Part shown: positions 56,674-62,244 of the stretch, piece after piece
Numbering within the stretch: position 1 is the stretch's first letter
Layout: each line of letters begins with the position of its first letter
Assembly (NCBI GenBank): GCA_003244255.1
Contig: QHCD01000043.1
Location: forward strand, 1-64,000
DNA: 64,000 nt
DNA from: Pseudonocardiales bacterium
GTDB lineage: Bacteria > Actinomycetota > Actinomycetes > Mycobacteriales > QHCD01
Reading direction: 5' to 3'
The notes under the pieces: generated by a model
Seen by the model: the letters and a program-made list of their open reading frames with translations, nothing else
Databases searched by the model: none
Told to the model about the DNA's origin: nothing
Program-made: the position numbers and the translations under genes

Positions 56674-56996
56674 TGTCGGTGAGCACGCAGCTGGTGTCCG
56701 ACCTGTCGATCTTTGTGCTGTCGGTGCTGGTGGGATTCGAGGTGATCAGCAAGGTGCCGGCAATGCTGCACACGCCGTTGATGTCGGGCGCGAACTCGAT
56801 CCACGGCGTCGTCATCGTCGGCGCGATGCTGATTGCGGCCAGCGCGCACACCGCCGCCGGGTACGTCCTCGCGTTCGTCGCGATGGCATTTGCGGCAATG
56901 AACGTTGCCGGCGGGTACGTCGTTACCGACCGGATGCTGCAGATGTTCCGCCGTCGTCCGACTCCGCCGGGTAAGACCGACGGGCCCGCTGCATGA
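56673..56996 (+). CDS. pntAB: NAD(P) transhydrogenase small membrane subunit
   Basis: 107 residues with three to four membrane helices (LSIFVLSVLVGFEVISKVPAMLHTPLMSGANSIHGVVIVGAMLIAA and TAAGYVLAFVAMAFAAMNVAGGYVVTDRMLQMF). The VPAMLHTPLMSGANSIHG block is invariant in PntA membrane parts. In organisms with split subunits it is a separate gene, as here. Overlaps pntAA and pntB by 1 and 4 bp. Confidence 0.94.
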   Translation: MSVSTQLVSDLSIFVLSVLVGFEVISKVPAMLHTPLMSGANSIHGVVIVGAMLIAASAHTAAGYVLAFVAMAFAAMNVAGGYVVTDRMLQMFRRRPTPPGKTDGPAA

Positions 56997-58405
56997 GCGA
57001 TTTCGACACCGCGGTCCGGCTGGTCTACCTCGCCTCGGCCGTGTGCTTCGTCCTCGGCCTGCACCTGATGAACTCGCCGGCTTCGGCGCGGCGCGGCAAC
57101 CAGGTTTCGGCGGCCGGCATGGGTGCCGCGATCGTCGTCACGTTCGTCGTCGTCGCACACGATTCGACGATCACCAGCACCGGCTGGATCGTGCTGATCT
57201 CGGGCGCGGCGCTCGGCACCGCCGCTGGTCTGGTGGGTGCGCGTCGAGTCGCGATGACGGCGATGCCGCAGCTGGTCAGCCTGTTCAACGCGGTCGGCGG
57301 CGGCGGGGCGGCCCTGGTGGCGATCGACGACGTCGTGCGGCTGCATTCCCTGCACATCGGCACGGCGCCGCTGCAGGTCAGCACCACCACCGCGCTTGAC
57401 GTCGTCATCGGTGCGGTGACGTTCTCCGGATCCCTTGTGGCGGTGGGAAAACTGCAGGGTATCGTCCCCGGCCGGCCGCTGATGCTGCCGGGTGGCCGCG
57501 CCGTCACATACGCGATCGCGGCGATCGCAGCCGCCGGCGCGATCTATGAGATGACCGGGCGGCTGAACCTCTGGGTGCTCATCGTCGTCGTGGTTGCGGC
57601 GCTGGTGTTCGGCGTCGCCACGGTGCTGCCGATCGGCGGCGCCGACATGCCGGTGGTGATCTCGCTGCTGAACGCCTTCACCGGAACCGCCGTGGCGATG
57701 GCCGGATTCGTCATCGACTCATCGGCGCTGATCATCGGCGGCGCTCTGGTCGGTGCCTCCGGCGGCATCCTCACCAAGCTGATGGCCGATGCGATGAACC
57801 GGTCGATCGGCAACATCATGGTGGGCGGCTTCGGCACCGGCGACGCCGCGGCCGCCGTCGCTGGCGACCCGTCGGCGACGGTGCGCGAGGTGTCGGCCGA
57901 CGACGTCGCGATCCAGCTCGCCTACGCCGCACGCGTCATCATCGTGCCGGGCTACGGGCTCGCGGCGGCGCAGGCCCAGCACGAGATCAGCGCGCTGGCC
58001 GACCTGCTCGAGGACCGCGGCGTCGACGTGTCGTACGCGATCCACCCGGTGGCCGGCCGGATGCCGGGGCACATGAACGTGCTGCTCGCCGAGGCGAACG
58101 TGCCCTACCCGCAGCTGAAGGAGATGGAGGCGGTGAACCCGGAGTTCGGCCAGGCCGACGTCGCGCTGGTCGTCGGCGCGAACGACGTCACCAACCCGGC
58201 GGCTCGGCGCGCCGGCACGGCGATCTCGGGCATGCCGATCCTCGACGTCGACGCCGCCAAGAGCATCGTCGTCATCAAGCGCTCGATGGGCCACGGCTAC
58301 GCCGGCATCGACAACGAGCTCTACGCCAACCCGAAGACGGGCATGTTCTTCACCGACGCCAAGGCCGGCATCGCCTCGCTGTCCACCGCCGTCAAGTCCC
58401 TCTGA
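56993..58405 (+). CDS. pntB: NAD(P) transhydrogenase beta subunit
   Basis: 470 residues; ATG overlapping the pntAB stop. The N-terminal half is membrane (about eight to nine helices, with GTAAGLVGARRVAMTAMPQLVSLFNAVGGGGAALVA and GADMPVVISLLNAFTGTAVAMAGF). The C-terminal 180 residues are the NADP(H) domain: VIIVPGYGLAAAQAQHEISALADLL, YAIHPVAGRMPGHMNVLLAEANVPY, VALVVGANDVTNPAAR, VIKRSMGHGYAGIDNELY. Completes the pump. A 64-bp hairpin repeat begins 14 bp after the stop. Confidence 0.96.
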   Translation: MSDFDTAVRLVYLASAVCFVLGLHLMNSPASARRGNQVSAAGMGAAIVVTFVVVAHDSTITSTGWIVLISGAALGTAAGLVGARRVAMTAMPQLVSLFNAVGGGGAALVAIDDVVRLHSLHIGTAPLQVSTTTALDVVIGAVTFSGSLVAVGKLQGIVPGRPLMLPGGRAVTYAIAAIAAAGAIYEMTGRLNLWVLIVVVVAALVFGVATVLPIGGADMPVVISLLNAFTGTAVAMAGFVIDSSALIIGGALVGASGGILTKLMADAMNRSIGNIMVGGFGTGDAAAAVAGDPSATVREVSADDVAIQLAYAARVIIVPGYGLAAAQAQHEISALADLLEDRGVDVSYAIHPVAGRMPGHMNVLLAEANVPYPQLKEMEAVNPEFGQADVALVVGANDVTNPAARRAGTAISGMPILDVDAAKSIVVIKRSMGHGYAGIDNELYANPKTGMFFTDAKAGIASLSTAVKSL

Positions 58406-58418
58406 CCCCTTCTCCTTT

Positions 58419-58482
58419 CGCCGAGATCGCATGTCACCACCGCGCCACGCCGTCACGGAGGTGGTGAACTGCGATCTCGGCG
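58419..58482 (-). repeat. 64-bp palindromic repeat, copy A (reverse orientation)
   Basis: Outer arms CGCCGAGATCGCA (58419-58431) and TGCGATCTCGGCG (58470-58482) pair perfectly over 13 bp, and inner CACCAC/GTGGTG pairs continue the stem. Two more copies of exactly the same length occur at 59461 and 61295, both in the opposite orientation to this one. Placed right after pntB. Confidence 0.85.
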
Positions 58483-58583
58483 GGACCAGTTGGGGGCGTC
58501 AGCGGCGTCCACAGGCTGGCTGGCTGTCCACAGCTGGCCCGTTCCCGCCGTCACGGGTCGGCGCGCACCGCGACGCTGGACCG

Positions 58584-59567
58584 ATGCGATCTCCCGGTCG
58601 GCCGCTCCCGACGGCGTTCACCCGCGATGCGGCGCTCGCCGTCGGCTGGACCGGCCGTCAGCTCGAGGGCTACCGATTTCGACTGCTGACTCGCGGTGCA
58701 TACGCCTGGGCCGGCGTGCAGCCGCGGCCGGCCGAGCTGTGCCGAGCGCTGAGCTCGCTGCTGCCACCCGGGTCGGGCTGGAGCCACCAGACCGCGGCGG
58801 AGTTGCTCGGCCTGCCACGGGTCGGCGCGCCGCGGCTCGGCCGAACCCTGCACGTGACCGTGCTTCGGGCTGCCGCCGTTCCGCGGCGCCACGGGCTGAC
58901 CGCGCACCGCGCCGAGATTCTCCCCGGGGATCTGGCCCTGGTCGACGGCGTCCCGGTCACCTCGATGCCTCGCACCTTCGTCGACCACGCCGCCGCGGTC
59001 GATCTGGAGCAGCTGGTCGCGATCGGCGACGCGATGATCCGATCCGGGCGTTGCACGGCGGCCGAGTTGGCGAGACGAGTGGCTGCCGCGGCGGGCCACC
59101 GCGGTGTCCGGCGGGCACGGCGGGCGCTGTCGCTGCTCGATCCGCGCGCGGCGTCGGTGCCGGAGTCGGTCATGCGCGTGCGCATCGTGGACGCCGGGAT
59201 GCCCGCGCCGACACCGCAGCTGAACGTCGTCGACAGTCGTGGTCGTTGGATCGCGCGTGTCGACCTCGGCTACGAGCAGGAGCGGATCGCGATCGAGTAC
59301 GAGGGCAGGCAGCACGCCGAGCGCGACCAGTTCGCCCGCGACATCGATCGTTACAGCTCGCTCAGCGCCGCCGGCTGGCGGGTCCTTCGGGAGGGCGCCG
59401 CCGACCATGCGGCCGGCGGCCAGCGGATGCTCGCTCAGCTCGGCGACCTGCTAAGTCCGCCGTCGAGATCGCAGTTGACCACCGGTGCGACGGCGCGGCG
59501 CGGTGGTGACATGCGATCTCGGCGGGGAGACGGGGCGGGGGTGGGCACCCGCAGTGTGAACGCTTGA
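58584..59567 (+). CDS. DUF559 endonuclease-like protein (AbiEi-like N-terminus)
   Basis: 327 residues from the ATG at 58584; the start is uncertain because the frame is open to 58431, inside repeat copy A. Residues 5-100 resemble the winged-helix-like N-terminus of AbiEi-type antitoxins (DAALAVGWTGRQLEGYRFRLLTRGAYAWAG). The C-terminal part has the Vsr-like DUF559 core: WIARVDLGYEQERIAIEYEGRQHAERDQFARDIDRYSSLSAAGWRVLR, with Asp, Glu and His in nuclease positions. The last about 35 residues are encoded by repeat copy B, so the original stop was probably near 59455. No partner toxin is visible. Confidence 0.75.
   Translation: MRSPGRPLPTAFTRDAALAVGWTGRQLEGYRFRLLTRGAYAWAGVQPRPAELCRALSSLLPPGSGWSHQTAAELLGLPRVGAPRLGRTLHVTVLRAAAVPRRHGLTAHRAEILPGDLALVDGVPVTSMPRTFVDHAAAVDLEQLVAIGDAMIRSGRCTAAELARRVAAAAGHRGVRRARRALSLLDPRAASVPESVMRVRIVDAGMPAPTPQLNVVDSRGRWIARVDLGYEQERIAIEYEGRQHAERDQFARDIDRYSSLSAAGWRVLREGAADHAAGGQRMLAQLGDLLSPPSRSQLTTGATARRGGDMRSRRGDGAGVGTRSVNA
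59461..59524 (+). repeat. 64-bp palindromic repeat, copy B (inside the DUF559 gene)
   Basis: CGTCGAGATCGCA (59461-59473) and TGCGATCTCGGCG (59512-59524) pair with one mismatch; the inner GACCACCG and CGGTGGTG arms extend the stem. Near-identical to copy C outside the loop. It supplies the codons for the C-terminal tail SQLTTGATARRGGDMRS of the DUF559 protein. Confidence 0.85.
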
Positions 59568-59626
59568 CCCGGGCCGCTCGTGGGCGTTTAGGTCGCGTTA
59601 AGCCACCGACCGTCAGGAGCACCGTC

Positions 59627-61249
59627 ATGCGTCGTCACACCCTTCGGATCGTCTCGGCAATCGCGATGGCGGCGGCGGCCACTTCAGCCGCACTCGTCGC
59701 CACCGGCAGCGGATCGGCCAATCCCGCCCCGGCGCCGCCCACAGACACCCGCGGCCCGGGTGGGCTGAACCTGGATACGACCACGATCCCGCAGCTGCAG
59801 ACGGCGATGAACGCGCATCGGCTGACCTCGGCAGCACTCACGACGTTCTACCTCGACCGCATCCGCCGGCTGAATCCGGAGCTGCACGCCGTCATCACGA
59901 CCAACCCAGCCGCGCTCACCGAAGCAGCAGCGAGCGACCGGTCCCGCCGCAACGGCCACCTCCGCAGCCCGCTCGAGGGCATCCCGGTGCTGTTGAAGGA
60001 CAACGTCGACACTCGTGACGCCGAGGCGACGACGGCGGGATCGCTTGCACTCGCCCAGGCCCGACCGGCGAGCGATGCGTTCCTGGTGACGAAGCTGCGT
60101 ACGGCCGGCGCCGTGATCCTCGGCAAGGCCAACCTCTCCGAGTGGGCCAACTTCCGGTCCACCCAGTCCTCCAGCGGCTGGAGCGGTGTCGGCGGTCAGA
60201 CCAACAACCCATACGTGCTCGACCGCAACCCGTGCGGCTCGAGTTCCGGCTCGGGGGCCGGAGTCGCGGCCGACCTCGCGACCGTCGCCATCGGCACCGA
60301 GACCGACGGCTCGATCGTCTGCCCGTCCGGGGCGAACGGCGACGTCGGAATCAAGCCGACCCTCGGGCTGATCAGCCGGAGCGGGGTCGTCCCGATCAGC
60401 GCCGAGCAGGACACGGCCGGTCCGATCGCCCGCAGCGCCACCGACGCCGCCGTCACCCTCGGCGTGCTCACCGGCGTCGATCCCTCCGATCCAGCCACCA
60501 AGGCGAGCGCCGGGCACTCCTACTCCAACTATGCGCAGTTCCTGAGGCCAGGATCGCTGCGGGGCAGGCGGATCGGCATCTGGGCGTCGTGCTGCAGCGG
60601 CGTCAGCAACGAGACGGACAGCATCCTCGCGCGCACGATCACCCAGCTGCACCAGCTCGGCGCGACGACGGTGATGGTGAACCTGCCCGATCAGGCGACG
60701 ATCGGCGCCAACGAGACGACGGCGCTCGATGTGGAGTTCAAGCACGACATCAACGCCTACCTCTCGACGCTCGGGGGCAGGCACCCGGCGAATCTGGCCG
60801 GACTGATCGCCTTCGACCGGGCCCACGCACGCCAAGAGATGCCCTACTTCAGGCAGGAGACGTTCCTCGCCGCGCAGGCGACCAGCGGCAACCTGTCCGA
60901 TCCCGCGTACAAGAAGGCGCGCGCGACCGCGACCGGGCTGGCGCAGAAGTCGATCAACCAGACGATGGCGGCCAACCATCTCGACGCGATCGCCGCGCCG
61001 ACCAACAGCCCGGCCTGGACCACGGACCTCACCAACGGTGATCACTTCACCCTGGCCAGCTCGAGCCCGGCGGCCGTCGCCGGCTATCCCGACGTCACCG
61101 TGCCGATGGGATACGCGAGCGGCCTGCCGGTTGGACTGTCCTTCTTTGCCTCCCGCTGGCAGGAGCCGAAGCTGATCGGGCTGGCCTACGCCTTCGAGCA
61201 GGGCACGCACGTCCGGCACGCACCGCGGTTCCTGGCCTCGACGCCGTAA
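59627..61249 (+). CDS. Secreted amidase (amidase signature family)
   Basis: 540 residues; ATG at 59627 behind CAGGAG. The signal peptide IVSAIAMAAAATSAALVATGSGSANPA indicates export. The Ser-cisSer-Lys triad is readable as Lys124 (VLLKDNVD), Ser205 (PCGSSSGSGAG) and Ser229 (TETDGSIVCPSG), with the classical 24-residue spacing between the serines. LGLISRSGVVPISAEQDTAGPIARSATDAA and YPDVTVPMGYASGLPVGLSFFA are family blocks. Hydrolyses amides outside the cell; the substrate is unknown. Related to peptide amidases by its block pattern. Confidence 0.9.
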   Translation: MRRHTLRIVSAIAMAAAATSAALVATGSGSANPAPAPPTDTRGPGGLNLDTTTIPQLQTAMNAHRLTSAALTTFYLDRIRRLNPELHAVITTNPAALTEAAASDRSRRNGHLRSPLEGIPVLLKDNVDTRDAEATTAGSLALAQARPASDAFLVTKLRTAGAVILGKANLSEWANFRSTQSSSGWSGVGGQTNNPYVLDRNPCGSSSGSGAGVAADLATVAIGTETDGSIVCPSGANGDVGIKPTLGLISRSGVVPISAEQDTAGPIARSATDAAVTLGVLTGVDPSDPATKASAGHSYSNYAQFLRPGSLRGRRIGIWASCCSGVSNETDSILARTITQLHQLGATTVMVNLPDQATIGANETTALDVEFKHDINAYLSTLGGRHPANLAGLIAFDRAHARQEMPYFRQETFLAAQATSGNLSDPAYKKARATATGLAQKSINQTMAANHLDAIAAPTNSPAWTTDLTNGDHFTLASSSPAAVAGYPDVTVPMGYASGLPVGLSFFASRWQEPKLIGLAYAFEQGTHVRHAPRFLASTP

Positions 61250-61294
61250 TCGCATCGGCCGCTGAGGCAACCGCTCGACGGCGACCGAATACCC

Positions 61295-61358
61295 CGCCGA
61301 GATCGCAGTTGACCACCGTCCGCGCGGCGTGGCGCGGTGGTGACATGCGATCTCGACG
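61295..61358 (+). repeat. 64-bp palindromic repeat, copy C
   Basis: CGCCGAGATCGCA (61295-61307) and TGCGATCTCGACG (61346-61358), one mismatch, with inner GACCACCG/CGGTGGTG pairing. Lies between the convergent amidase and DUF4097 genes, 45 bp and 13 bp from their stops, where it could act as a bidirectional terminator. Confidence 0.85.
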
Positions 61359-61371
61359 GGGGGCAGCGGGG

Positions 61372-62244
61372 TTAGGGCGCGTACTTGGCCGTTGCGTCGC
61401 CCGAGCCGGTGCGCAACACGATGGTGTACGGCGACGACGAGTTGGTCGCGACGTCGACCCGCCGATTCCCCGAGCCGGTGTCGGCAGTGACCCCGTAGAT
61501 GCGCGGCCCGCGCGGTACGGCGACCGTCGCATCGCCGCTGCCCGTGTCGGCAAGCACGGCGGCCGGGGGTGTGGTGAAGGCGAGTGACACCGAACCCGAT
61601 CCGGTCTCGGCGCTCACGCGGGCCGCGTGCACGCGGGTGGCCGTCACGTCGCCGGATCCGGTCTTCAGCCGCACCCCGCGACCGCCGACGTCGTCGGCCG
61701 TGATGTCGCCGGAATCCGTCTGCAGCGACACCGCGCCGGAGAGGTCGGTGGCGTCGACGTCGCCGGAGCTGGTGCTGATGGTGACGGGCCCCGCAACGCC
61801 GCTCACCGAGACATCGCCCCGGCGCAGCTGCGCCCGGATCGCCGTGCCGGGCGGCATGCTGACGACGTAGTTCACCGAGCAACGTCCGGTCAGCTGCCAG
61901 CCGCTGCAACCACCCGCGAGAGTCAGGGTGGTGCCGTCGACCGACGCCGACGGGTGGACGGAGAACATCGACTCGATGACGGTGCGCCGAACCGTGACGC
62001 CGGCATCGGGCGGCCCGGCGACGAAGCGGACGCTGCCGCGGTCCTGCACGTCGACGGCGGTGATCGCCGAGCCGTAGTGCAGCTGCGCGACGTGATGCCG
62101 CGACTGCGCGGTGAGCCCGACGATCTCGAAGCCGGCGAAGCCCATCATCACCACGGCGATCAGCGCGCCGATCACCACCGCCGCCGAGCGTCCGCTCTGC
62201 GGCGCGCCGTGCAACGCCGGGCGCACCGGTGCCTGGCTGTTCAT
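61372..62244 (-). CDS. DUF4097-type membrane-anchored beta-helix protein
   Basis: 290 residues; ATG at 62242-62244 overlapping the response-regulator stop (ATGA). One N-terminal membrane helix (SAAVVIGALIAVVMMGFAGFEIVGL), then an outside domain of repeating short strands with SGDV/GSGD turns (VTISTSSGDVDATDLSGAVSLQTDSGDITADDVGGRGVRLKTGSGDVTATRV), typical of the DUF4097/adhesin-like beta-helix. Function not established; often next to two-component systems of the envelope. Confidence 0.8.
   Translation of the reverse strand: MNSQAPVRPALHGAPQSGRSAAVVIGALIAVVMMGFAGFEIVGLTAQSRHHVAQLHYGSAITAVDVQDRGSVRFVAGPPDAGVTVRRTVIESMFSVHPSASVDGTTLTLAGGCSGWQLTGRCSVNYVVSMPPGTAIRAQLRRGDVSVSGVAGPVTISTSSGDVDATDLSGAVSLQTDSGDITADDVGGRGVRLKTGSGDVTATRVHAARVSAETGSGSVSLAFTTPPAAVLADTGSGDATVAVPRGPRIYGVTADTGSGNRRVDVATNSSSPYTIVLRTGSGDATAKYAP

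Follow-up and report, generated by a model that had tools for sequence, protein, structure and literature searches.

Dispersed 64-bp palindromes of a Pseudonocardiales genome as probable cognate sites of DUF559 proteins

The window analysed here, a 64,000-nucleotide stretch of DNA from a Pseudonocardiales bacterium, contains three copies (A, B and C) of a 64-bp palindrome. The locus raises the question of what kind of element these palindromes represent, and of whether the gene enclosed by two of them has a part in their spread. The first-pass annotation of the window likened them to REP or MITE elements and to bidirectional terminators. The palindromes and the genes around them are:

56993..58405, plus strand: NAD(P) transhydrogenase beta subunit gene (PF02233), left neighbour
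58419..58482, minus strand: palindrome copy A, type 1, 64 bp, left end of the proposed unit, inverted relative to B and C
58419..59524, plus strand: proposed mobile unit, composed of A, the DUF559 gene and B
58584..59567, plus strand: DUF559/MTES_1575 gene, with an AbiEi-like N-terminal region and a Vsr-like/EDxHD-type nuclease domain, putative cognate enzyme
59461..59524, plus strand: palindrome copy B, type 1, 64 bp, right end of the unit, overlapping the 3' end of the DUF559 frame
59627..61249, plus strand: amidase gene (PF01425), between B and C
61295..61358, plus strand: palindrome copy C, type 1, 64 bp, a solo copy with convergent genes on either side
61372..62244, minus strand: DUF4097 protein gene (PF13349), convergent, right of C

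The coordinates, equal 64-bp lengths and arms reported for the three copies by the first-pass annotation all agree with the sequence, and the inverted orientation that it gave for A is reproduced by a covariance model, which sets A on the minus strand and B and C on the plus strand. Its description of the loops as variable applies to about six hypervariable nucleotides, after which comes a conserved aCGGCGtGtCGC. The sequence CGAGATCGCA occurs six times in the window, always within the arms of A, B and C, and shuffled windows contain it 0.57 times on average and at most four times. The arms are absent elsewhere in the window. Folded as single DNA strands, the three copies are much more stable than shuffled sequences (z -3.7 to -7.1). 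Their covariance model scores are 84.7-89.6 bits (E 4e-20 to 8e-19), which are not independent values, as all three belong to the model's own training set.

Copy A lies 13 bp past the stop codon of the NAD(P) transhydrogenase beta gene, and copy C lies between the stop codons of a convergent gene pair, 45 and 13 bp away. Copy B is located inside the 3' end of the DUF559 frame, whose stop codon is 43 bp beyond it. The earlier statement that all copies occupy gene 3' ends is thus roughly correct, with the qualification that B is within a reading frame. The last ~37 codons of the window DUF559 gene come from copy B and the bases beyond it. DUF559 frames often enter or end in the right-hand palindrome, as at window positions 59461-59567, at L338 2389-2459 and in L225.

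The first-pass annotation had suggested counting copies genome-wide, and took a lack of further copies as a sign of local triplication. A covariance model built from 19 copies and run on the host genome finds about 46 sites. Therefore, A, B and C are members of a dispersed family and not the product of a local triplication. All 46 sites are well supported by the model; 44 are exactly 64 bp long and two are 65 bp. The copies, inspected with their flanks, mostly have CGCC at the start and arms of about 23 bp. The family comprises 28 sites of type 1, the type found in the window, and 18 sites of a sister type, type 2. Type 1 is arranged as CGCCGAGATCGCAGTTnACCACC, about six hypervariable bases, aCGGCGtGtCGC and GGTGGTGAACYGCGATCTCGGCG, and type 2 as CGCCGAGATCCGGATTTGCCACCG, 16 variable bases and CGGTGGYAAATCCGGATCTCGGCG.

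Each type keeps its arm sequence, and compensatory changes are not in excess. An excess appears when type 1 and type 2 are pooled, and merely reflects the two subfamilies. Because the arm sequence itself is kept without an excess of compensatory changes, a protein-recognition site fits the palindromes better than an RNA hairpin does. An RNA with a covarying stem was considered and rejected, as within-family compensatory changes are not in excess.

The palindromes avoid genes, as judged from gene calls made with a simple codon-usage script. Predicted genes are overlapped by 2 of the 46 sites, whereas sites placed at random within the same stretches overlap them in 91% of cases. Among the 44 intergenic sites, 80% are at most 60 bp from a stop codon (32% at random), and 34% have convergent genes on either side (7% at random). 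This placement and the strong hairpins are what would be expected if the palindromes were bidirectional transcription terminators or RNA stabilisers at gene ends. However, the same placement would be expected of inserts that stay clear of genes and promoters, so it does not prove a terminator role. Inspection of the sequence revealed no run of T residues beside A, B or C, and no Rfam family reaches its cut-off. Moreover, a terminator is expected neither to be a near-identical 64-mer of fixed length with conserved arm sequence nor to be paired with one gene family, as described below. The terminator interpretation made at first pass does not explain these properties, and we regard it as very unlikely, although the palindromes possibly affect termination as a side effect.

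The first-pass annotation also proposed a check for association with DUF559 genes, and A and B indeed enclose such a gene. Four DUF559 genes were found in the host genome: the window gene and those designated C62, C31 and C26. When the window DUF559 protein was the sole query, the other three genes escaped detection, and the C62 gene was not recognised by the Pfam DUF559 model; tblastn together with a profile search recovered all four. The host assembly consists of 93 contigs with a total of 3.02 Mb, and its completeness is 86%; the absent part could include a fifth DUF559 gene or a transposase. Each of the four genes is enclosed by two copies of a gene-specific palindrome with a fixed length of 64-66 bp. 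The C62 gene is enclosed by type 2 palindromes, the C31 gene by 64-bp palindromes with arms GACTGAGTAGAGATCGACGT, and the C26 gene by 66-bp palindromes with arms TTGTTGATCATGCGCTTTCGGGACG.

These additional palindromes are dispersed as well. The C31 type is present at nine sites in the host genome and the C26 type at about 44; both arms are matched at 33 of the latter, and all 33 have identical arm spacing. The C26 type and type 1 have in common an asymmetric core, CGGCGTGTCGC, located right after 5-6 hypervariable bases. The most similar pair of proteins, C43 and C62 (50% identity), also has the most similar palindromes. The signal of coevolution between protein and palindrome is weak and, between taxonomic families, not significant. 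The C62 gene (L082 2666-3362) is degenerate, with a broken frame and ends that are not intact, and type 2 may be an inactive family without an active enzyme of its own.

We consider the most probable explanation, at roughly two chances in three, to be that the family of A, B and C is the cognate site of the DUF559 protein, that palindrome-gene-palindrome is a REPtron-like mobile unit, and that solo copies such as C are its non-autonomous relatives. Positions 58419..59524 are proposed as such a unit by analogy with the three other units of the host genome and from the presence and absence of a unit in a related genus, which is described below.

True REP elements are accompanied by RAYT genes, which invariably lie between two REPs in inverted orientation (PMC2817692). 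The palindrome-DUF559 units share with REPtrons the arrangement of an enzyme gene between two inverted palindromes, the occurrence of the same palindrome as dispersed solo copies, the use of a separate palindrome type for each enzyme, and a mostly intergenic location. Perhaps, then, the palindromes are REP elements mobilised by a RAYT encoded elsewhere in the host genome. REPs have been defined (PMC3733652) by a GTAG or CGTC tetranucleotide at one end, a length of 20-40 bp and a stem of 5-13 bp. In contrast, the palindromes described here are 62-72 bp long, have arms of about 23 bp and lack the GTAG foot and the CGTC tag, and several types carry the asymmetric loop motif next to a hypervariable stretch. 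Their putative enzyme is an AbiEi/Vsr-like fusion rather than an HUH tyrosine transposase like RAYT. The earlier observation that there is no RAYT nearby extends to the genome, where the only Y1 protein found is IS200-sized and has no repeat copy within about 4 kb. A RAYT/IS200 origin was rejected on this basis, and mobilisation by RAYT is exceedingly unlikely. Of the earlier comparison with REP and MITE elements, the dispersed, palindromic, intergenic and multi-copy character is retained, but the palindromes are not REPs in the RAYT sense. The palindrome-DUF559 unit is a REPtron in layout and not a member of the REPtrons.

DUF559 relatives are widespread: a profile of the four host proteins detects them in 74 of the 81 genomes of the order, host included, and genes of this type often number 5-15 per genome. 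We compared 29 DUF559 loci from 29 other genomes, with a threshold of at least 45 bp for a palindrome; a first pass of this comparison used shuffles, and loci of the transhydrogenase beta gene (n=49) served as controls. A palindrome is present on at least one side of 23 of the 29 DUF559 loci, compared with 7 of the 49 control loci, and on both sides of 12 DUF559 loci, compared with no control locus. In all 12 two-sided loci the palindrome on the left matches that on the right, compared with about 1% of mismatched pairs. At the chosen threshold, no palindrome was detected at 6 of the 29 loci and no pair at 17.

In the complete genome G046, an 18-base arm from the palindromes beside DUF559 occurs 46 times, within palindromes of 70-72 bp, and the reversed pattern does not occur. 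On the Arthrobacter sp. ERGS1:01 plasmid NZ_CP012477.1, the DUF559-type gene AL755_RS00945 has matching palindrome arms on both sides. A mycobacterial-type palindrome consensus had no matches in the plasmid collection. Several further palindrome types, such as GATCTTGGTACCGATCC and GATCAAGGAGTTCG, occur in intergenic regions of the G046 genus (L242, L237 and L218) and may be linked to the remaining DUF559 genes that these genomes carry. We found no prior account of DUF559 genes beside palindromes among the openly accessible papers searched. Titles and abstracts of those papers that name DUF559 do not mention the pairing, and the available portions of a paper on GTAG/CGTC repeats and of a paper on a DUF559 protein do not describe it.

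Alternatively, the palindromes might be MITE-like ends that are moved by an unrelated transposase or another unrecognised factor, with DUF559 genes as passengers between two copies. Like MITEs, the solo palindromes are short, non-coding and dispersed, and a longer unit has the same sequence at its ends. By itself, a nuclease that lacks strand-transfer activity does not account for the arrival of a solo palindrome at a new site, the incomplete assembly could lack the transposase, and the loci at which no pair was detected would be natural for a passenger. However, the palindromes differ from MITEs in being fixed in length, and in the host genome the gene that lies between two copies is a DUF559 gene, rather than any other, for each of four different palindrome types. 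Unrelated palindromes enclose the same gene family elsewhere, and a chance passenger would not recur in this way. This makes the MITE-like explanation rather unlikely.

Direct comparison of orthologous sites is possible in the well-sampled related genus of G042, where a palindrome-DUF559-palindrome unit occupies query bases 545-1562. Four species (G042, G135, G114 and G168) carry the complete unit at the same intergenic site. In G195 the site contains a lone degenerate palindrome, and in G061, G138 and G180 the unit is absent and the conserved flanks are just 17-47 bp apart. G211, G128 and G177 have a single palindrome there, which is of another subtype and lies beside other sequence. Homology stops at 1562 in G051, G066, G185 and G197, and in G182 the match is limited to 547-1562 and lies at a shifted place. 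Because homology ends at the palindromes, the palindromes are the ends of what moves. Taken together, the pairing of gene and palindrome and their mobility as a unit are well supported. The unit junction was compared at one orthologous site, which is too diverged for a target-site duplication to be read.

This site seems to have been used repeatedly. Near its left junction, L267, L268 and L269 have a palindrome of another subtype (GCGTGTTTGTACACCGACACGCCG...) with the core motif in the opposite orientation and ~1 kb of other sequence. In the G046 genus, L242/L249 and L245/L253 represent the same orthologous position with a different loop, which suggests replacement by other copies, with independent insertion as a possible alternative. 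The pair L241/L252 is almost unchanged.

The DUF559 protein has the features of a nuclease. Four residues, E194, D227, H244 and D253, do not vary among 32 DUF559 members, and E238 is almost invariant. The predicted structure (pLDDT 94.4) has as its best PDB match in Foldseek the catalytic domain of the homing endonuclease I-Bth0305I (probability 1.00, target TM 0.69, E only 0.026), and profile searches with the nuclease domain match I-Bth0305I (E 4e-4) and the endonuclease-like protein 3hrl (E 2e-6). Thus, the protein has the Vsr-like fold and conserved catalytic residues that characterise EDxHD homing endonucleases. The resemblance to enzymes of the I-Bth0305I type lies in nuclease fold and sequence. 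In contrast to these, the DUF559 gene is not in an intron or intein, the N-terminal region is AbiEi-like in place of the DNA-binding region of the phage enzyme, and the proposed target exists in many copies, with one on either side of the gene.

The N-terminal part of the protein matches AbiEi models in PADLOC. AbiEi antitoxins are reported to bind inverted repeats in their own promoter (PMC7319586), so perhaps DUF559 is an AbiEi-like DNA-binding protein and the palindromes are operators, acting in autoregulation, chromosome organisation or defence and spread by ordinary recombination. However, the copies are mostly near stop codons or between convergent genes and not in promoters, and a second palindrome is found at the other end of the gene. 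Moreover, presence and absence concern a whole unit that ends at palindromes, and the nuclease residues are conserved. Whereas AbiEi antitoxins have a similar N-terminal region, here it is fused to a nuclease domain, and the neighbours of the window DUF559 gene include no adjacent AbiEii toxin gene. We therefore consider the operator explanation quite improbable.

If the palindromes are indeed the cognate sites of DUF559 proteins, the AbiEi-like regions of a DUF559 dimer might bind the two palindrome arms, the fixed palindrome length might correspond to the spacing of two half-sites, and the Vsr-like domains might cut in or near the variable centre. Such a dimer, bound at the arms with its nuclease domains in the centre, would explain why the length is fixed and the centre is free; I-Bth0305I is reported to dimerise on a target that is almost 60 bp long (PMC3943268). 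Repair of the break from another copy could then move the gene or the palindrome and swap loops, and recombination between the two flanking palindromes could leave solo copies. More tentatively, and with somewhat less than even odds, the units may represent a widespread class of actinobacterial mobile DNA in which DUF559, and not a transposase, spreads itself and many fixed-length palindromes through double-strand-break repair, with palindrome length set by the two half-sites that a dimer occupies and the place of the cut marked by the hypervariable centre.

Pfam lists DUF559 as a family of unknown function. If DUF559 proteins drive palindromic repeats in actinobacteria, this would give a role to a large family of unknown genes and a source to many unexplained repeats. 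The REP/RAYT system would also have a second counterpart, which is unrelated to it and relies on a homing-type nuclease, and the two could be compared experimentally.

Some host genome copies show additional features in their flanks. The type 1 copies at C18:16685 (L110) and C19:14073 (L033) have a common repeat, TTGTCATGAGCGGGCCTCCG, in the left flank, part of which recurs to the right of the C19 copy, so it possibly belongs to another repeat family or a local duplication. A short tandem repeat, GGGTCAGCCGGCC, directly adjoins a type 2 copy (L091, C73:59184 onwards). The copies at C37:25882 and C37:37929 (L034), 12 kb apart, have the same loop, the same arms and a few flanking bases in common (CTTC / AGAGACGG). 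This pair looks like a recent duplication, and could reveal the true ends of the element.
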